NCBI GenBank assembly: GCA_903844735.1
Contig: CAIMUX010000006.1
Location: 1 to 34,548, forward strand
Direction: 5' to 3'
DNA length: 34,548 nucleotides
Origin: Candidatus Eiseniibacteriota bacterium
GTDB lineage: Bacteria > Eisenbacteria > RBG-16-71-46 > CAIMUX01
A program made the translations under genes and the position numbers. This document shows positions 2,384 to 34,548 of the stretch, piece by piece; position 1 is the first letter of the stretch; each line of letters opens with the position of its first letter. Under the pieces are notes generated by a model. The model had not been told where the DNA came from, did no database searches, and saw only the letters and a program-made list of their open reading frames with translations.

Positions 2384-2866
2384 GTGATCCTCACTGTGAG
2401 CATTGCCGACCTCAAGACCTCGGGCCAGCGCGGGGACACCATCGTGACCCATGCGCTGGGGAGCTGTCTCGGGATCACCATTTACGATCCCGTAGCCGCC
2501 GTCGGGGGGATGCTGCATGCCATGCTCCCCGACTCGAGCATTGATCCCAAGAAGGGTCTGGAAAGCCCGTTCATGTTCGTGGACACGGGCCTGCCGCGCC
2601 TCTTCAAAGACTGCTACAAGCTCGGGGCGGACAAGACCCGGTTGATCGTAAAAGTCGCGGGGGGAGCCACCTCCAAGGCCAACTTAGAGGACGACTACTT
2701 CCAGATCGGAAAGCGGAACTTCGTGATGCTCCGGAAAATGCTGTGGAAGAACAGCGTACTCCTTAAGTCCTACGACGTGGGCGGGTGCGATTCCCGAACC
2801 ATGTCGCTGGAGCTCAGCACGGGAGACGTGCTCCTCAAAATGAACGGCGCGGTCCGCAAGCTGTAG
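2384..2866 (+). CDS. cheD: chemoreceptor glutamine deamidase CheD
   Basis: CheD deamidates receptor glutamines and in many bacteria also partners a CheC/CheX-type phosphatase. The GTG at 2384 is chosen because AGGGG sits 6 bases upstream and the family's N-terminus begins close to it. The next upstream start (2324) would overlap the end of cheR and add unconserved residues. The 160-residue product carries the catalytic-cysteine region (THALGSCLGITIYD), the conserved His in GGMLHAMLP, and the KVAGGA…IGKRNF and SYDVGG…RTMSLELSTGDVLLK blocks. These correspond to the CheD Cys-His-Thr active site. The length is typical of the family. A short gap of 34 bases separates it from cheY. Confidence 0.93.
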   Translation: MILTVSIADLKTSGQRGDTIVTHALGSCLGITIYDPVAAVGGMLHAMLPDSSIDPKKGLESPFMFVDTGLPRLFKDCYKLGADKTRLIVKVAGGATSKANLEDDYFQIGKRNFVMLRKMLWKNSVLLKSYDVGGCDSRTMSLELSTGDVLLKMNGAVRKL

Positions 2867-3276
2867 GGGCGCGAGCTCGGCTCGGAACGGGAGGTCAGTC
2901 GTGGCACTCAACGTACTCGTGGTGGATGACAGCGCCGTCATGCGGCACATGATCATCAAGACGCTCGGCCTTTGCGGCATCCCCCTCGGGGAAGTCCACC
3001 AGGCAGGGAACGGGAAGGAAGGACTGGAGGTCCTCGACCGGAGCTGGGTCGACCTCGTCCTCGTGGACATCAACATGCCGGTCATGAACGGCGAGGAGAT
3101 GATCACGAAGCTGCGGGAGAACCCGCAACTGAAAGACACGGCGGTGATCGTCGTCTCCACCGATGGGAGCGCGACGCGCATCGAGATGATGCAGAAGAAG
3201 GGGGCGGGGTTCGTCCACAAGCCCTTCACGCCGGAGTTGCTCCGGGACACCATCGTTCAGACCACGGGGGCGAGCT

Positions 3277-8368
<5,092 letters not shown>

Positions 8369-24548: not shown

Positions 24549-27500
24549 ATGAAGATTGACCTCGACCACCTGGCCGACCCGCAGGCCGGCTGGCGCGCCC
24601 TTGAGGACGTGGATCTCGAAGGCCTGTTCGCCGCCGCGGAGCAGCTTCTTGCCGACCTCCCGGCGGATGGCTTGGACCCGATGCCGGTGTTTCCGTTGGT
24701 ATCCTCGGCGGAGGAAGCCGACCCGGGCGATCTGCGCTCGACCCCGACGAGTCCGCAGGGGCGGGCCCGCGTCCTTCTTTGGACCTGGCTTGACGCCACG
24801 CGCCGAGTTCCATTTCTGCGCCGGGTCGCCGGCACGCCTGACGGGAATCGATGGTTGTCCCTCGTGCTCGCGATTCTGGAGCGAACGCACTACACCACCG
24901 GCATTCTCCTCCGGCAGCGGGTGGCTCGCGAACCTCATCGGCCCTGGCTGCGCATCGTCCACCGTGACCACATCGAGGAGATCACCCTCGTCGCGGCCGC
25001 GGCGCGGGTGGAAGGGATCGCCCGCGGGCTGCACGCCCTCTTCGCCGCACCACCCACGGGCCGTCCGGTGGCGATTCTCGCGGAGAACGCCCCGGAGACG
25101 ATCCTCTGCGATTTGGCCTGCCTCACCACCGGCCTTGTCAACACGACCATCCCGGCCGACGCCACCGGGGAGCAGGCGGCGTGGATCCTTGAACAGGTGG
25201 AAGCCGAGGTTCTGTTGGTGGGCAGCGACCCGCAATGGGAGAAGATGCGCCCGCTGGTCGCCGATCTCCCGGCGCTGCGCCGCGTGGTGCGGATCTTCCA
25301 CGGTTCGGCGGGGCCGGGGGCCGGCGGGCGCGTGGGGATGCCGCTCACCCTCGACGAGCTAGTGCGCCGCGGTGGGGAGTCTCCCGGGCCTGTCTGGCTG
25401 CGCGGACGGCCGGGGCCGCGGCTCGCCGACCCGGCGACCTTGATGTACACCTCGGGGACCACCGGTCAGCCCAAGGGGATCGTCTTCTCTCACCGGAACA
25501 TCGTGTATAAGCGCTTCTGCCGCGCCCTCGCTCTGCCCGAGATCGGCGAATCGGATCGTTTTCTCTGCTATCTGCCTCTCTTTCACACTTTCGGCCGCTG
25601 GCTGGAGATGACCGGCACTCTGTTTTGGGGGGCCACGTACGCTTTCGCGGAGAGTCCGTCGCTGGAGGCGCTCCTCGACAACTTCCCGCGAGTGGCTCCC
25701 TCGGTCTTCATCAGCATCCCCAAGAAGTGGATCCAGCTCCGCGACCGGATTCGCTCCGACATGCCCGAGGATGCCGACCCTCGTTTTGCCCGCGCTCTCG
25801 TGGAGCGGGTCACCGGCGGACACCTGCGCTGGGGAGTCTCCGCGGCGGGGTTCTTGGAGCCCGCGGTCTTTCGCTTCTTCCAGCGTCATGGGGTGGAGCT
25901 GATGAGCGGCTTCGGTATGACCGAGGCGACCGGCGGCATCACCATGACGCCGCCCGGCGAGTATCGCGAAGGGACCGTGGGACGTGCGCTCCCGGGCATC
26001 GAGGTGCTCCGCGCCGAGGACGGCGAGTTGCTCGTCCGCGGGCCGTATGTCATGCACGGCTACTTCGGTCCCGATGAAGGGGGGCACGACTACCGTGAGG
26101 ACTGGTTCGCAACCGGCGACATCGTGGCGGTGGAGGAGACCGGTCACCTCACCATCGTCGACAGAAAGAAAGACATCTACAAGAATGTCCGTGGGCAGAC
26201 GATCGCCCCGCAGCGAGTGGAAGGCCTCTTCGCGTCGTTTCCTGAGATCCGCGTGGCGTTTCTGGTCGGCGATGGTCGCGAGTACAACACTCTCCTGCTC
26301 TGTCCCGACCCGGAGTTCGGAAGCCCGCCGTTGGGCACACTCTCGCCGGAACGGCTGCGCGAGTACCTCACGGATGTCACCGTTTCGGTGAACGGCTTCT
26401 TGGCTCCCTTCGAGCGGGTTCTCGATTTCGCCGTGCTGCCGCGGCTCTTGACTTTGGAAGACGGAGAGCTGACACCGAAGGGAACGTTCCGCCGCAAGGT
26501 CGTAGAGGAGCACTTCACCGGGTTGATCGAAGAGATGTATCGGGCGCAGGTGACGAGGCTCACGGCGGGAGAACTCGAGGTGAGGATTCCACATTGGTGG
26601 CTGCGCGAGGTCGGGCTGACTCTCGGCGAAGTCGCGGCCGGTGCCGACGAGCTGCGCTTGCCGAGACTCGGACGCGCCCTGTCCCTGTCGTGGGACGCGA
26701 ACCGCGGCGCGTTTCGCTGCGGTGATCTTTTCTACGAGGGAAGCGGGCCGCGTGTCGATCTGGAGACGATCCTGCGCGCTCCGTCGCTTTGGTTGGGCAA
26801 CCATGCCCTTGTGGAGTTTGCCGGGCACGGGGGGGTTAGTCGGCCGTGGCGCCGGCCCCATGTGGGGCAGGCATCCCCCAGGGGAGACGCCCCCCCATGG
26901 AGCCACGGCTCCCAAAGGGGAGACGCCACCCGATGGGGGCACGGCGGTCGGGGGGATGGCGAGGGGCCGGTGCGTGTGGCCGGGATGGCGGCTGTGCCAC
27001 AGCTCACTGCTGAGGACCATGCACGCCTGGAGGAAGCTATATGGCGCGACGAGCGCACGCCGGGCGCGCTGCATCTCGCCGCCGCCGCGCTTCTCTCGGC
27101 GGACGAGAAGGAGGGACTGCGCGTCGTCTCTTATCTCGAGTCGATTGCGGCTGAGGACGATGCGCAGCGCAGCGAATTGGCGCGGATTCCGCTGCGGCGG
27201 GCCGTACATCACGAGTTGGCGCCGATCCGTTCCGCAGCGTTTCGGGCCCTGATGCCTCATGGGGCGCCGGAGATGGTGGCGCCGACGATGATCTCGTTTC
27301 TGCAGGCGGATGCCACGGTGCTGAGCCCGGCGGGCGCGGAGGCACTCTCGCGCCGTGGGCTGCCCGACGAGGTGATGGCTGCGGTTCTGGCCTTTGTCGC
27401 CCAGGTTCACGCGGCGCGGGGCGCGCGCCGCAGCGAGCCGGTCCGCGGGTTCCGCCGGCGCCGGCGTCCTGCCAGGCACGACTGTCTTTCGCAGCGGTCC

Positions 27501-29489
27501 GACAGTCCGGAAGCCTGCCGCGCTCTCGATGAACGACGCACCCTGGCGCTCCTCGGTTTCCTCGTACGCTATGCCGGGGACCATCCCGGCTGGTACAAGG
27601 CGGCGCGACAGGAACTGGCCCGCTGGTTCCTTTCCGACGAGACGCCGCGGGCACGCGAGGCGGCTCGGCGGGGGCTCTTGAAGCTGACGGAGGAGTTCCG
27701 TGTCTGGCTCGGTCCTGAGCCTCGGGTGGCCGTGGATCCGCTCAGTGGTCGTGAGTACGGCTGGAAGCAGGTGCTTCGCTTTGATCCGGGCACGGACGCA
27801 GCGACGGCCGAGCAACTCACCCGCGCCGTGGGCGAGATCCCCCTGGTCAAGGAAGGGATCTTCGTTCTCTCCGGCGGGCTTCGTATCTCGCTTGCCGAAA
27901 TACCCGAGGGGGGAATCCGCGTGCGTCACCTCGGCACGCGCCACGAGAAGTCGGTTCTGCGGCTCAGCGTGCAGACGCGGCAATCCGGCGCCTTCGAGCT
28001 GGCGGTGAATCTTTCGCGCGGCATGGGGCCGGAGGCGATGGAAGAGGAGGCGCTTCGGCTGGTGGCTCTCGGCGTTCAGGGCGGGTCGCGCCGGGTGGTT
28101 GAGGAACTCGGTGGCTACTGGCCGGCCCAGCAGCTCTGGACCGAAGAGTTCGTGCCCGGCGACACCGTGACGGCGTTGCTCGCGCGCGAGTGCGCCGGGC
28201 CGGCGGCGGTCCCGCCCGAGCGGCTGGTCCCGCGCTGGATCCATCTAGCGGCCGGCGCCGTCATGCTCTACCTCGATTTCTGGGATCGGACGGGGCGTAA
28301 GCTGGTGCCGAGCTGTCCGGCTTTGGAGGACGTGATCGTCCCTGCGCACGACGACCAGGAGGGTGCGTGCCTTGTTTCCATCAGCGAGTGCAGGCCGTTC
28401 GAGGGGCTGCCGGCGTTCCTCCACGCGCTCCGGGTTGGGTTGGTGGAACTCGTGGAAGCCCGTTACCCGGCCCTGTCCGGGGCGGTGGGGAGCGAGATTC
28501 TCTTCGCGGCCATCGTTGACGTCTTCGGAGAGGCAGAGGGAGATGTGCTGCTGGCCGAGCTCGCTGCGGATGCCGAATTCGCGCGGCTCTTCCCCGCGGA
28601 TGGGGATCGGCTGGAGGCGTTTCGCGCGCGCTTGCGCGAAGGGCGCTATCTACCCCGTCGCCTCGCCGCGGCCATTCGCCGCTATCGTCGGTGGGATGCC
28701 GCCAACCCCGGCGCCACGCCCCCGGCCGCCGCCCGCATGCTCCGCGACCTCTGGGACTCCTACGGGCTCCGCGAGCTGGAGACGTCGCGCCCGGAGACGA
28801 GGCTGCGGCTTTTCCGCGAGACGGTTTTCGCGGCGGCGACAGGAACCTTGGGAGAAACGCTCGATCACCTGGCCGTTTCGGCCCGCGCCGGCCACCCGAT
28901 GGCAGAGACGCTGCTGCGCGAGATGAGCGAACTGGTTCGCCGCGCACCGCTCTCCGAGGAAGACGTGTATTTCCTGGCGAGGCTGACCTATGCCCACCTG
29001 CGCCCGGAGGAAACCGCCGATTTCACGCTGGTGGAGCGCGACGGCACGAAGATGTCGGATCTCGTGGTCACGCATCGCGACAGCGGCGGGCGCTACTTCC
29101 GTGTGCGACACGCCGGCCACCCGCGCGAGGTGTGGGCGTTGAACCGGCTCTTTGACAGTTCCGGCGTACGGGTCAGGTACCGCCCGGGGCACCAGTTCCT
29201 GGTGGCGGTGGACGAGAACGCCCGCGTTCTCGGCGGCTTGGTGTATCAGGCGCCGGAAGGTGATGCGGTCCACATGGAGAAGATCGTCGTGGCTCCGACG
29301 CACCGGCGGCAGGGGATCTCCGAGCAGTTGATGGAGGACTTCTTCCGGCGGATGCAAAGCCGCGGGGTTCACGCCGTCACCACCGGGTTCTTCCGGCCGC
29401 AGTACTTCCGGCGGTTCCGCTTCCGTGTGGATCGGGAGCATGCCGGGCTGGTGCGGATCTTGGATGATGAGCCGGTGCCCGAGAACTAA
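24549..29489 (+). CDS. giant fusion: AMP-forming acyl-CoA-synthetase-like + helical/unknown middle + GNAT acetyltransferase
   Basis: A 1646-residue protein starting after GGAGGAGG. Residues ~95-670 form an adenylate-forming (ANL) domain of the long-chain acyl-CoA synthetase type. The phosphate loop is YTSGTTGQPKG (from Y300), followed by GFGMTEATGG (~454), DWFATGDI (~518) and DRKKDIYKNVRGQ (~538). The C-terminal lid contains GELTPKGTFRRK. Residues ~755-810 are a Gly/Arg/His low-complexity insert with a 12-residue repeat. Residues ~815-1040 are Ala/Leu/Glu-rich helices, possibly HEAT-like. Residues ~1050-1330 contain beta-rich and helical blocks (LWTEEFVPGDTVT) that faintly recall a kinase-like fold (inference). 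Residues ~1500-1640 are GNAT (KIVVAPTHRRQGISEQLMEDFF). No membrane segment or signal peptide is seen. Substrates are unknown. Confidence 0.85.
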   Translation: MKIDLDHLADPQAGWRALEDVDLEGLFAAAEQLLADLPADGLDPMPVFPLVSSAEEADPGDLRSTPTSPQGRARVLLWTWLDATRRVPFLRRVAGTPDGNRWLSLVLAILERTHYTTGILLRQRVAREPHRPWLRIVHRDHIEEITLVAAAARVEGIARGLHALFAAPPTGRPVAILAENAPETILCDLACLTTGLVNTTIPADATGEQAAWILEQVEAEVLLVGSDPQWEKMRPLVADLPALRRVVRIFHGSAGPGAGGRVGMPLTLDELVRRGGESPGPVWLRGRPGPRLADPATLMYTSGTTGQPKGIVFSHRNIVYKRFCRALALPEIGESDRFLCYLPLFHTFGRWLEMTGTLFWGATYAFAESPSLEALLDNFPRVAPSVFISIPKKWIQLRDRIRSDMPEDADPRFARALVERVTGGHLRWGVSAAGFLEPAVFRFFQRHGVELMSGFGMTEATGGITMTPPGEYREGTVGRALPGIEVLRAEDGELLVRGPYVMHGYFGPDEGGHDYREDWFATGDIVAVEETGHLTIVDRKKDIYKNVRGQTIAPQRVEGLFASFPEIRVAFLVGDGREYNTLLLCPDPEFGSPPLGTLSPERLREYLTDVTVSVNGFLAPFERVLDFAVLPRLLTLEDGELTPKGTFRRKVVEEHFTGLIEEMYRAQVTRLTAGELEVRIPHWWLREVGLTLGEVAAGADELRLPRLGRALSLSWDANRGAFRCGDLFYEGSGPRVDLETILRAPSLWLGNHALVEFAGHGGVSRPWRRPHVGQASPRGDAPPWSHGSQRGDATRWGHGGRGDGEGPVRVAGMAAVPQLTAEDHARLEEAIWRDERTPGALHLAAAALLSADEKEGLRVVSYLESIAAEDDAQRSELARIPLRRAVHHELAPIRSAAFRALMPHGAPEMVAPTMISFLQADATVLSPAGAEALSRRGLPDEVMAAVLAFVAQVHAARGARRSEPVRGFRRRRRPARHDCLSQRSDSPEACRALDERRTLALLGFLVRYAGDHPGWYKAARQELARWFLSDETPRAREAARRGLLKLTEEFRVWLGPEPRVAVDPLSGREYGWKQVLRFDPGTDAATAEQLTRAVGEIPLVKEGIFVLSGGLRISLAEIPEGGIRVRHLGTRHEKSVLRLSVQTRQSGAFELAVNLSRGMGPEAMEEEALRLVALGVQGGSRRVVEELGGYWPAQQLWTEEFVPGDTVTALLARECAGPAAVPPERLVPRWIHLAAGAVMLYLDFWDRTGRKLVPSCPALEDVIVPAHDDQEGACLVSISECRPFEGLPAFLHALRVGLVELVEARYPALSGAVGSEILFAAIVDVFGEAEGDVLLAELAADAEFARLFPADGDRLEAFRARLREGRYLPRRLAAAIRRYRRWDAANPGATPPAAARMLRDLWDSYGLRELETSRPETRLRLFRETVFAAATGTLGETLDHLAVSARAGHPMAETLLREMSELVRRAPLSEEDVYFLARLTYAHLRPEETADFTLVERDGTKMSDLVVTHRDSGGRYFRVRHAGHPREVWALNRLFDSSGVRVRYRPGHQFLVAVDENARVLGGLVYQAPEGDAVHMEKIVVAPTHRRQGISEQLMEDFFRRMQSRGVHAVTTGFFRPQYFRRFRFRVDREHAGLVRILDDEPVPEN
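26876..26947 (+). repeat. 36-bp in-frame tandem repeat inside the fusion gene
   Basis: Two ~36-base units share GGGGAGACGCC at 26881 and 26917. They encode SPRGDAPPWSHG and SQRGDATRWGHG. A near-palindrome, CCCCATGTGGGG (26857-26868), precedes them. The unit length is a multiple of three, so the reading frame is preserved. Confidence 0.8.
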
Positions 29490-30768: not shown

Positions 30769-31008
30769 CCTTGCGGGGGGCACGATGCGTTCATGATGGC
30801 CCGACGCGCCTCGGACCAGGGTACGCACGTAACCGCCCCGGTGTCGATTTCCTTAGGCCCGTTGCGCAAGCTCGAGAGCCCACGCTTCTTCGGCACCCGG
30901 ATCGGTCTGTGCATCCAAGCTGTCAATCAAGGTTCCAGCCAGGGCGGCACGCTCTTCCGGAGAAAGCCTCAGGGCGTCTTCGAGCAGCCTCTTCATATTC
31001 GGCGTCAT
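30765..31008 (-). pseudogene. addiction-module antitoxin with a one-base frameshift
   Basis: From the ATG at 31008 the frame reads MKRLLEDALRLSPEERAALAGTLIDSLD … EEAWALELAQRA and then a TAA at 30855-30853. This is the N-terminal three quarters of the widespread putative addiction-module component family. Skipping one T restores KEIDTGAVTCVPWSEARRAIMNA, the family's normal C-terminus, ending in a TGA that overlaps the toxin's GTG. The pairing with a truncated toxin shows a decayed module. The alternative is a sequencing or assembly error at this base. Confidence 0.8.
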
Positions 31009-31334
31009 GCCTTCGAGTGTACTACCGGGCACATCCATTGCTTCTGCTTTCCTTCGTCGACGGGTCGTCCCACCTGCGGCCGCCATCGCCGCGAGAAGTG
31101 TCCGGGGATCGTCGGTGGGTTTCCGAGCAGTTTCGGTGCCAAACGTCGGGCTTGGTTTCGGGCTATGGCGGAGGGACAACCCTCTGGGATGGCACGTTCA
31201 ATGCCGAGACACGGCGTGTCCACGAACCGCGTGTGCCTGCCGTCGCGTTCTTTCGTCCGCCCGGCGATCAGCAACCCGATGCGCCGGAGGGTGGATCGGG
31301 TATACTGACGCAAGCGAAGTGAAAGGAGCAGGCA
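31009..31334. other. 326-base stretch without a recognised gene
   Basis: This lies between the divergent antitoxin starts. Reading frames exist on both strands, but none shows a family pattern, and the composition suggests degraded coding DNA. A -10-like TATACT (31301-31306) lies near the right end. Confidence 0.5.
31301..31306 (+). promoter_or_regulatory. possible -10 element for the antitoxin/RelE operon
   Basis: TATACT lies 28 bases before the antitoxin ATG and 14 before its ribosome site. No convincing -35 hexamer is found upstream, so activation or autoregulation may apply. Confidence 0.35.
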
Positions 31335-31523: not shown

Positions 31524-31898
31524 GTGGTGCCATACAAGGTTGCTCTCGCCCGCAGCGCCCGCAGGGAATTGGAGCACCTTCCCGAGCCGCTCCAGTCGCG
31601 GGTTCTCAGGCGAATCGAGACGCTCGGCTCGATTCCCAGGCCCGGCGGGTGTCGCAATCTCGAGGGTGCGGAGGACCTGTGGCGCATCCGAATCGGAGAA
31701 TATCGGCTGATCTATTCGATCGACGATGCTCGCCGGATGGTCGACATCACCGTAATTCGGCACAACCCTTATTCCCGCCCAGGCAGCGGTACCTGCCGTC
31801 ACGAACGTGGTCGCCGTGCAGCGCACCGGCACCCAGTTTGCCGATGTCACCTACGACGTCGTAGACGCCGATGGCGACACGATGGCGGTCAGGCTTGA
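31524..31898 (+). CDS. RelE/ParE-family toxin with a replaced C-terminal tail
   Basis: RelE-type toxins cleave mRNA in the ribosome. From the GTG at 31524 (GGAG 6 bases upstream) the frame reads YKVALARSARRELEHLPEPL, IETLGSIPRPGGCRNLEGAEDLWRIRIGEYRLIYSID and VDITVIRHN. These are the complete RelE fold up to the last strand. Family members end within about eight residues of this point. Here translation runs on for ~40 further Arg/His-rich residues that come from an overlapping secreted-protein fragment read in another frame. The last few residues (usually RHRxxxYR) are altered. It is a 124-residue product whose activity is uncertain. Confidence 0.7.
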   Translation: MVPYKVALARSARRELEHLPEPLQSRVLRRIETLGSIPRPGGCRNLEGAEDLWRIRIGEYRLIYSIDDARRMVDITVIRHNPYSRPGSGTCRHERGRRAAHRHPVCRCHLRRRRRRWRHDGGQA

Positions 31899-32209: not shown

Positions 32210-32323
32210 ATGAACATTGCCGATTTTGTCGAGCAGTTGGCGGCCCGGTCCGACCCCCCCCCGCACATCCTGAGCCGCTTGAGGCGCGGTCATGTCACGA
32301 TCCCCGAAGCAGCCAATTTCAAC
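32210..32323 (+). pseudogene. 5' end of an unidentified gene, apparently interrupted by the mobile element
   Basis: GGAGG lies 6 bases before the ATG at 32210. The frame encodes MNIADFVEQLAARSDPPPHI followed by LSRLRRGHVTIPEAANFN. It then runs into the 26-bp palindrome at the element end and stops at 32376-32378 after a short foreign tail. A good start signal and protein-like composition followed by an abrupt junction suggest a gene cut by insertion. I do not recognise the family. A run of nine C (32253-32261) lies within it and could also hide a length error. Confidence 0.4.
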
Positions 32324-32380
32324 GTTTTATGTGGAGCTCCACATAAAACATTTCATGTGAAGCGTTTCGTTATGTGAAGC
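32324..32380. repeat. palindrome and 9-mer array at the recombinase-element end
   Basis: GTTTTATGTGGAG (32324-32336) and CTCCACATAAAAC (32337-32349) form a perfect 26-bp palindrome with no spacer. The arm's 9-mer ATGTGGAGC recurs as ATGTGAAGC at 32355-32363 and 32372-32380 in the same orientation. This gives one inverted pair plus two direct copies, 32 bases before the stop of the nearest recombinase gene. It is the layout of a tyrosine-recombinase core site with accessory sites. Confidence 0.75.
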
Positions 32381-32412: not shown

Positions 32413-33486
32413 TCACCTCCTTGCCGGTGCAGCACTCGGTACATCGCTGCACATAATCAGTGGCGTCTTCGAGAGTCCGTCGAGCCATTCGAGGGTGCTT
32501 GGTTTGAGCCACTTGGAGCGCCCCTTATACAACGCTCTGCTGGCTGGTGGTTGTGATGCCTCCAGCGCCTTGCGCTTCATCTTCATGTTGATCTCCACGT
32601 ACGCGTGCGTTGTGTTCAGGTCCGCATGGCCCAGCCAGTCTTTCACAACGCTCAAGTCATTGCCCGCCTGGAGCAGATGCATGGCCGTGGTGTGTCGAAT
32701 GGAGTGGGGACTTATCTTCTTGCACTTGAGAGAAGGACACGTCTCCTCGGTGAGGGTAACATCACGGCGTACGAGGTATCGAATGCCGAAGCGAGTGAGG
32801 GGTCGGCCATTGGCATTGAGAAAGACGGATGGAGCTGGGGAACCCTCTCGCGCCTGGCCGTGGAGGTAGTCCTGGAACGCTGCCACCGTTTCCGGCCAGA
32901 GCGGACAGACTCGTTCCTTCCGCCCTTTGCCGGTCAGCTTTACCTGGAAGGGAGCTTCCAGGCGTAGATCTTCCATCTTCAGGTCGACCACTTCCTGCAC
33001 ACGCGCGCCGGTGTTGTAGAGAAACAGCAGGAGGGCATAGTCCCGGAAACCGTGTCTCGATCGGAGATCGACCCGTTTCAGAAGCGCACCGATCTCCTGA
33101 TCCTCCAAGTACTCCATCGTCTTGTGCTCGGTGCGCTTCGTGGGCAGGGCGCAGATGCGCTGACACTGTGGCAGGAGCACCGGGTCCTGGTAGGCCACGT
33201 AACGCATGAAGGTGCGCAGGGCCGCCAGGCGGTTATTGCGCGTCGCAGTGCTGTTGCCGTGGGTGGTCTCCAGATCGTCCAGAAAGGCCAGCACCATCTT
33301 GTCATCAACGTCTTCCAGAGCCAACTGGTCGACCGGCTTCCCCGTGCGGTCGGAGCCGAATCGAAGCAACAGCTTCAGAGCATCCCGGTAACTGAAAGTG
33401 GTGTTCGGGCTGAGTCCCCTTTGGGCGGCCAGATAGTCATGAAAGAACCCTTGCAGAAACCGGGCCAGAGGATGGGGCGCGTTCAT
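32413..33486 (-). CDS. tyrosine recombinase, third gene of the trio (RitC-like)
   Basis: A 357-residue site-specific recombinase. The N-terminal SAM-like core-binding domain (~8-110) has LSPNTTFSYRDALKLLLRF. The catalytic domain has R162 (NTGARVQEVVDL), K187/K190 (LTGKGRKER), H261 and R264 (PHSIRHTTA), H287 (WLGHADLNTT) and nucleophile Y296 (THAYVEIN). All six positions are present, so the enzyme should be active. A ~50-residue tail follows. The start overlaps the stop of the preceding recombinase (ATGA). Its stop is 33 bases from the nearest 9-mer of the palindrome array. Confidence 0.92.
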   Translation of the reverse strand: MNAPHPLARFLQGFFHDYLAAQRGLSPNTTFSYRDALKLLLRFGSDRTGKPVDQLALEDVDDKMVLAFLDDLETTHGNSTATRNNRLAALRTFMRYVAYQDPVLLPQCQRICALPTKRTEHKTMEYLEDQEIGALLKRVDLRSRHGFRDYALLLFLYNTGARVQEVVDLKMEDLRLEAPFQVKLTGKGRKERVCPLWPETVAAFQDYLHGQAREGSPAPSVFLNANGRPLTRFGIRYLVRRDVTLTEETCPSLKCKKISPHSIRHTTAMHLLQAGNDLSVVKDWLGHADLNTTHAYVEINMKMKRKALEASQPPASRALYKGRSKWLKPSTLEWLDGLSKTPLIMCSDVPSAAPARR

Positions 33487-34463
33487 GATTCACCTCCTCC
33501 CGCCAGGACGTTCTCCCGGAGGTTCTTGAGGAAGCGGTCCCCGGCCTGGTCCAGCAACTCGGCCGTTGCATGCAGGTAGACCTGGGTGGAGCTGATCTTG
33601 AGGTGACCGAGGTAGGTGGCCAGAGCGGGCAAGAGCGCCTGGACGTCTTTACCTTGGCGATACCACTGGAGCAGGCGCGCACAGGCAAAGCTGTGACGAA
33701 GATCATGCAGGCGCGGTCCGGGGCAGCCCTTTCCTCCGCGGAGACCGCACCGGGTCAGGAGGTGTCGGAACGTGATGTCGACAGCGGTGTGATAGACTCG
33801 ACGTCCCGTGCGGGTGAGAAACAAGGCATTCTCCGCGACGGCTGAAGGCACCCGGGCGCGCGCGCGGATGTAGCTGTGAAGGACGGACGAGGTCGACGGT
33901 GAAACGGGTACCCACCGAGCCTTGCCGAACTTGCCCTCCGCGATATAGAGCAAGTTCTGATCGAGCGTGACGTGGCCCAGGTTCAAGGCGAAGGCCTCGC
34001 CGCAACGAAGTCCGGTGGTGTACAGCAGTCCGACGAGGGTGGCGTAGGTCTTTGGTCGCAGAGAATCACGGGGCGCCAGCTCGCGCGCGGCTGCGACAAT
34101 CGCTCTGATCTCGGCTTCCGTGTAGAGGTGGGGAAAGCGGACCGGCCTTCGTCCCGGGCACAGATCCTCCTGCGGCACGTAGCATTCCGGTTCGAACTGC
34201 CGCAGGAAGCGGCAGAACTGTCGCAGAACGGAGAAACGGTTCTCTCGTGAACCGGGTTGCAGGCTCTGCGTGGTCCGGGCATAGCGTTGGATGACTTCCC
34301 GGGTCGGCCAGAGACCTTGGAACCCTTCCTGATGGAGAAGGCGGTCGAAGGGCGCCAGAAGTTGGGTCTGGCTGTGAGGGTCGACGCCGCCCAGGCTCCG
34401 AAAGGCGACATACTGGGAGAAGCGATCGGCCAGAGTACTGAGAAAAGCGGGAGTCTGCATCAT
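33483..34463 (-). CDS. tyrosine recombinase, second gene of the trio (RitB-like)
   Basis: A 326-residue recombinase. The N-terminal core-binding part (~1-105) is followed by the catalytic domain: R153 (TTGLRCGEAFAL), K178/K181 (GKFGKARWVPV), H253 and R256 (LHDLRHSFA), H287 (YLGHLKISST) and Y296 (QVYLHAT). The catalytic set is complete. Two ATG codons stand in tandem at the start, the first overlapping the TGA of the upstream recombinase; GGAGG (minus strand) lies ~7 bases before. It ends in an ATGA overlap with the third gene. Sequence outside the catalytic motifs is unlike the neighbouring recombinase, as expected for members of different subfamilies. Confidence 0.92.
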   Translation of the reverse strand: MMQTPAFLSTLADRFSQYVAFRSLGGVDPHSQTQLLAPFDRLLHQEGFQGLWPTREVIQRYARTTQSLQPGSRENRFSVLRQFCRFLRQFEPECYVPQEDLCPGRRPVRFPHLYTEAEIRAIVAAARELAPRDSLRPKTYATLVGLLYTTGLRCGEAFALNLGHVTLDQNLLYIAEGKFGKARWVPVSPSTSSVLHSYIRARARVPSAVAENALFLTRTGRRVYHTAVDITFRHLLTRCGLRGGKGCPGPRLHDLRHSFACARLLQWYRQGKDVQALLPALATYLGHLKISSTQVYLHATAELLDQAGDRFLKNLRENVLAGGGES

Positions 34464-34548
34464 GACACCTCCTCGGGCCAGTCCAGAGGCAACTGTTGGA
34501 GTGTTGGCAGGTCGACCTTCGTATACATGAAGGTCGTGTTTATATTGC
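34460..34548 (-). CDS. tyrosine recombinase, first gene of the trio, C-terminal end only (RitA-like)
   Basis: The last 28 codons are visible: NINTTFMYTKVDLPTLQQLP followed by LDWPEEVS and TGA. TTxxYTKVDL…LPWP is the usual end of a tyrosine recombinase, so the Tyr in FMYTKVD is probably the nucleophile. The stop overlaps the next gene's start. The coding end also contains CGACCTTC/GAAGGTCG arms (34513-34520 and 34529-34536) around GTATACAT. Confidence 0.75.
   Translation of the reverse strand, partial: NINTTFMYTKVDLPTLQQLPLDWPEEVS

Follow-up and report, generated by a model that had tools for sequence, protein, structure and literature searches.

A palindrome and repeat array at the end of a recombinase-in-trio element as a probable recombination site with two cores

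What might a perfect palindrome be doing beside a row of tyrosine recombinase genes? The question is raised by the right end of a 34,548-nucleotide stretch of DNA from a Candidatus Eiseniibacteriota bacterium (the window, i.e. contig C6 of a 5.4-Mb draft genome), where the genes of a recombinase-in-trio (RIT) element lie close to the end of the contig. RIT elements were reportedly described by Van Houdt in 2009 and 2012 and by Ricker in 2013. They contain three overlapping tyrosine recombinase genes (ritA, ritB and ritC), measure ∼3.4–3.8 kb and carry terminal inverted repeats (IRs). Neither RITs nor the presence of a palindrome in them is new: the 2012 paper reported that ritA and ritC are flanked by a 28-9 bp inverted repeat and a palindrome, left these unexplained, could not fit these features to known core/arm site layouts, and raised the question of how three tyrosine recombinases share one four-strand reaction (PMC3414803). 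RIT target specificity and movement are elsewhere listed as not tested (PMC10214605). An earlier sequence-only reading of the window was right in calling the site mechanism of RITs poorly described.

The features at the right end of the window are the following:
32321–32326, no strand: outer 6-bp overlap AACGTT beside the palindrome, placed by family anatomy
32324–32349, no strand: perfect 26-bp palindrome GTTTTATGTGGAGCTCCACATAAAAC, with the conserved 20-bp arm pair TTATGTGGAGCTCCACATAA at 32327–32346
32347–32352, no strand: inner 6-bp coupling AACATT between the palindrome and the IR, with spacing as in relatives
32351–32380, plus strand: terminal inverted repeat of the ritC end, matched to the ritA end of a sister copy on contig C46
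32353–32362, plus strand: IR arm 1 TCATGTGAAG, the outer arm and putative second core half, 17 bp from arm 2
32370–32379, plus strand: IR arm 2 TTATGTGAAG, the inner arm; the pair of arms is also present, inverted, at the ritA end on C46
32413–33486, minus strand: ritC, a tyrosine recombinase of 357 aa (Phage_integrase PF00589, E = 8.6e-31)
33483–34463, minus strand: ritB, a tyrosine recombinase of 326 aa (PF00589, E = 8.4e-23), with a 4-bp overlap with ritC
34460–34548, minus strand: 3′-end of ritA, ∼ the last 29 codons, cut by the contig end at 34548

In alignments of ritB and ritC the catalytic residues R, K, HxxR, H and Y could be read, and PF00589 also matched the C-terminal part of ritA taken from C46. 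RitC shows 42–47% identity to the RitC of annotated plasmid trios over 92–98% of the protein, and RitB and RitC score as Xer-like, at values under the curated cut-offs. The window contig ends in at least 127 bp that are identical to the ritA-ritB junction of C46, which carries ritA; the trio of recombinases proposed by the sequence-only reading is therefore supported only through this overlap, the window itself holding just two complete genes and the end of ritA.

Read inward, the sequence outside ritC is AATTTC-AACGTT-TTATGTGGAGCTCCACATAA-AACATT-TCATGTGAAG-CGTTTCG-TTATGTGAAG. The perfect palindrome adjoining ritC and ritB, and the two direct copies of ATGTGAAGC beside it on the ritC side, are real; by hand calculation, the number of 26-bp palindromes expected by chance in the window is ∼34,500 × 4^-13 = 0.0005. 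The 9-mer ATGTGRAGC occurs four times in the window, always within the array (32329+, 32336−, 32355+ and 32372+); dinucleotide shuffles of the window contained a mean of 0.40 occurrences and never four. The two inverted copies, earlier taken to be abutting, in fact overlap by 2 bp. When the whole genome was searched for the 20-bp centre of the palindrome with up to three mismatches, two places were found, the window and a position beside a RIT on contig C77. Among 47 genomes from the phylum, two contained the pattern TTATGYGGAGCTCCRCATAA, at three sites in total, each adjacent to RIT genes. The IR of the window ritC end matches the ritA end of C46 over 30/30 bp in inverted orientation, a length within the ∼28–34 bp taken as characteristic of RITs. 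Judged from these sequences, the array at 32321–32380 is very probably one end of an integrated RIT element and a site of recombination.

The far end of the window element is unassembled, since C6 stops at the ritA/ritB junction and the IR is found elsewhere in the genome only on C46; the presence there of a partner 6-mer for AACGTT is expected from the family pattern only. The sister copy on C46 holds ritA, ritB and ritC, with a deletion in ritC and an apparent frameshift in ritA (one SAM-like domain match was obtained in this ritA piece). The earlier suggestion that the far end would repeat the array in inverted form is borne out at the C46 ritA end for the two 9-mers, which are present at both ends of this copy (29/30 bp between ends), and not for the palindrome, which is found at neither end of it. 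Absence of these sequences from the other end had been named as grounds for rejecting the reading; this is misleading, because a one-ended palindrome is the rule (39/51 elements, see below). The ritC end of C46 abuts AACGTC-CACTGCCACTGC, the HxH-motif region of an IS91-like transposase (NV/HCH, the slash marking the break), and contig C79 starts exactly at the same AACGTC, breaking an IS91-like transposase at NV/HCH. An intact paralogue (L144, Y2_Tnp family) reads uninterrupted NLNV-HIH, and at least two insertions at this motif are likely in the source genome. The flank of the window element, AATTTC-AACGTT, merely resembles the IS91 site (AACGTY); its assignment to an IS91 transposase was rejected, since the 231-bp flank matched nothing else in the genome and no Pfam family.

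The arrangement of RIT ends was compared in ∼100 loci, comprising RITs from plasmids, 80 genome contigs and relatives from the phylum. A constant layout, T5-ov-IR...IR-ov′-PAL-ov-T3, was found, T5 and T3 being the halves of the target, ov and ov′ 6-bp sequences, and PAL a perfect or near-perfect 20-bp palindrome made of two extra abutting arms. Each IR is composed of two direct 10-bp arms with starts 17 bp apart (33/34 elements). Palindrome halves match the outer IR arm of their own element at a mean of 6.9/10 positions, and the arms of other elements at 5.7. The 6-bp sequences were assessed in 34 elements chosen by IR and palindrome only, blind to the 6-mers; these are not all independent, since three represent one Bradyrhizobium lineage, the others coming from many phyla. 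The 6-mer outside the palindrome was identical to that at the opposite IR in 16/34 and matched at ≥5/6 positions in 26/34, compared with shuffled expectations of 0.67 elements (exact), 0.98 (one mismatch) and 1.65 (≥5/6). Eight of the 34 elements match at ≤4/6 positions; L033, which has two palindromes, and L074, which is perhaps offset, match poorly. A separate census, made without regard to the palindrome, took in 51 elements for which both flanks were available; the threshold used (≥7/10 pairs per 20-mer, with a chance of 0.0035) gave a palindrome at one end only in 39, at both ends in three and at neither in nine; one-ended palindromes lay on the ritA side about as often as on the ritC side. 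Searching viral contigs for the palindrome pattern alone rendered 23 places, 18 of which had the arm pair at +6 bp with the 17-bp spacing, on one side only, so that the palindrome is not spread over places unrelated to recombinases. A complete element is present at six of these 18 arrays; in four of them the overlaps agree at 5–6 of the 6 positions.

When T5, ov and T3 were joined by script, with the element, its coupling 6-mer and the palindrome removed, open frames were obtained that run through conserved motifs, such as LLIL/DDWG of IstB, HDL/RHSF of a recombinase and PYSP/YQNAK of rve, and also in resolvase, IS66, TnsA and zincin sequences. The Pfam domains spanning the join were IstB_IS21, AAA_22, rve, Resolvase, DDE_Tnp_IS66, TnpB_IS66, Phage_integrase, MPTase-PolyVal, TnsA-like and DUF932. 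Insertion points fall in the codons of the IstB Walker B aspartate, the recombinase HxxR and similar motifs, the targets being mostly in other mobile elements and at conserved catalytic-motif codons. The HxxR targets include ritB or ritC of other RITs, e.g. on C77 of the source genome, where a second RIT lies within ritC of another RIT (G000:C77, L131, ∼3350–6760) at the catalytic motif HLI/RHTTAM. Comparison of an empty ISFK1 istB with the joined target of L014 revealed a single mismatch in 406 bp, 46 bp from the site; for two more joined targets, an empty copy differed at four or five scattered positions. As far as joined and empty sequences can tell, RITs insert exactly within conserved portions of other genes, and do so in either direction.

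The istB gene of ISFK1 carries RITs in both orientations (L014, L150, L151 and L155 versus L154 and L156), and, whichever way the RIT points, its palindrome lies invariably to the 3′ side of istB; the remaining IstB insertions agree on this side. In Bradyrhizobium, L011 and L012 have the coupling TTGGAT and are seated in CTGGAC and CTCGAC targets; L014 shows the reverse, with the coupling CTGGAC and a TTGGAT target. Each of these two couplings corresponds to the overlap of one of the two known IS21 targets. Because couplings equal the overlap of an alternative donor target, the 6-mer can be read as a trace of the site occupied before, and AACATT in the window would likewise be the overlap of a previous insertion site. 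Since donor and target overlaps differ in some cases, homology of the overlap would not be strictly needed.

These observations suggest a mechanism in which the mobile unit would comprise IR-ritABC-IR together with the 6-bp coupling and the 20-bp palindrome. The palindrome is probably an arm pair common to two back-to-back tyrosine recombinase cores of a predicted circular form, whose junction would read arm2-arm1-6bp-PALarm/PALarm-6bp-arm1-arm2. Each core (10-6-10, dif-like) would consist of one palindrome arm, a 6-bp overlap and one outer IR arm, and recombination with the target would be possible at either. The 5′ half of the target would always take the place of the palindrome arm; the side on which the palindrome and the unused core lie relative to the target would thus be fixed, the unused core retaining the 6 bp of the previous site, and, because the palindrome is symmetric, the element could enter in either orientation. 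Anatomy, 6-bp repeats, precise insertion, target polarity and insertion in both orientations are observed, and we infer from them the circle, the sequence of strand exchanges and the pairing of proteins with arms. The second IR arm, at 32370–32379 in the window, is a candidate, and probably an actual, accessory site. The sequence-only reading, which proposed a core site with accessory binding sites, was right that the array appears to hold both, and wrong to take the palindrome alone as the core; of the extra 9-mers that it regarded as accessory, the second is plausibly so and the first would be a core arm. The division of labour among the three recombinases that it raised is conceivable. RitA is reported to have two core-binding domains (PMC8138268), which is a lead only for arm binding. 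It is also conceivable, by analogy with integron attC, that RITs move as a single-stranded intermediate in which a hairpin of the palindrome rebuilds the double-stranded arm pair; this is unlikely, and were it true, the fixed side of the palindrome would be a signature of strand choice and the palindrome a new kind of folded recombination site.

Other explanations of the palindrome fare less well. A pattern scan called a terminator-like hairpin exactly at it, and in the window copy it lies downstream of ritC, as would befit a transcription terminator of the rit operon or an operator for its repressor. However, about half of the relatives have it outside the ritA end, on the upstream side of the operon; its side tracks the target and not the operon, and it is part of the unit missing from empty sites. 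Such a function is contradicted as the main role of the palindrome and highly improbable, a secondary role being possible. The palindrome might instead belong to the target, RITs inserting beside pre-existing palindromes: it does border the host side, and L069, L070 and L093 have palindromes on both sides. Yet no palindrome is present in the empty targets L147 and L148, and one RIT lineage is accompanied by the same palindrome in different targets (L011, L014 and L149), which leaves this idea a negligible chance.

The anatomy itself could also arise from a strand-biased copy-out/copy-in process, in which exchange is limited to a single strand, the donor retains its site and the 6-mers are left as footprints. 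SEs and Tn554 relatives, which leave a 6-bp footprint and have been proposed to copy out (Tn554 only possibly), also have 6 bp of donor sequence on one side (PMC10214605), and strand bias could yield the polarity of the palindrome relative to the target. In SE and Tn554 insertions as described, however, the target 6-mer is found at one end only and the donor 6-mer at the other, with no target repeat, whereas in RITs the target 6-mer recurs at either outer edge and the donor 6-mer and palindrome lie inside, as expected of two-strand exchange at one core; moreover, IntA-, Tfp- or Srap-type partners were not seen in the trios examined. Copying out appears unlikely for RITs, and exchange of both strands at one of two cores is the preferred reading.

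The predicted RIT core is reminiscent of other systems. XerCD act at dif, a core of two inverted ∼10–11 bp arms around a 6-bp central region. The RIT core would likewise have two inverted arms around 6 bp, and RitB and RitC score as Xer-like, but RITs would have two cores with a common palindromic arm pair, carry extra arms at the 17-bp spacing and, judged by natural insertions and empty sites, are mobile with many targets; in contrast to classical Xer and Cre reactions, they would show no strict need for overlap homology. Tn916-type elements carry along a 6-bp coupling sequence from their previous site. Unlike these, RITs keep only one coupling 6-mer, together with the palindrome, and no Xis-type gene is present in the trio. 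SE, GInt and Tn554 elements resemble RITs in having several tyrosine recombinases per element, 6-bp footprints and specific targets (PMC10214605); their partner genes differ, and no palindrome between spacer and target has been described for them. The arm spacing, the 6-bp overlap and coupling, the target polarity and the catalytic-motif targets go beyond the description of RITs in PMC3414803. A literature search turned up no description of how the arms are spaced, of the 6-bp coupling or of the target polarity; Ricker 2013 may already contain part of this, and priority relative to that work is uncertain. The anatomy points to definite sites, predicts both a circle junction and a 6-bp crossover, and offers a natural archive of donor sites, so that the movement of RITs can be tested directly. 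It would also explain why the catalytic codons of transposases and recombinases, other RITs included, are sites of RIT insertion, and the palindrome would account for insertion in either orientation.

Some elements depart from the usual form, either having no palindrome (L013 and C46) or two (L033, L069, L070, L052 and L093). L013 (2667–6106) lacks the palindrome and has istB 5′ halves at both ends, within 2.27-kb perfect inverted IS21 repeats; it probably arose when two RIT copies recombined. In L033 and L093, a palindrome and an inverted 3′ target half are present at each end. With two 5′ or two 3′ target halves, L013, L033 and L093 fit recombination between copies, and such products are to be expected if both IR-6bp junctions can recombine. 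In L149 of Bradyrhizobium (2668–6107) the istB halves come from different IS21 copies and the outer 6-mers differ, which suggests a RIT-mediated or homologous exchange between targets. The left flank of L069 encodes a MutS-like motif, VGDFYELF, read by eye. In the window, small toxin-antitoxin-like genes adjoin the insertion (Unstab_antitox at 30853–31179, minus strand, and a ParE toxin at 31524–31898, plus strand), and positions 24549–29489 encode a predicted protein of 1646 aa with an AMP-binding domain and, at its C-terminus, a GNAT acetyltransferase domain.
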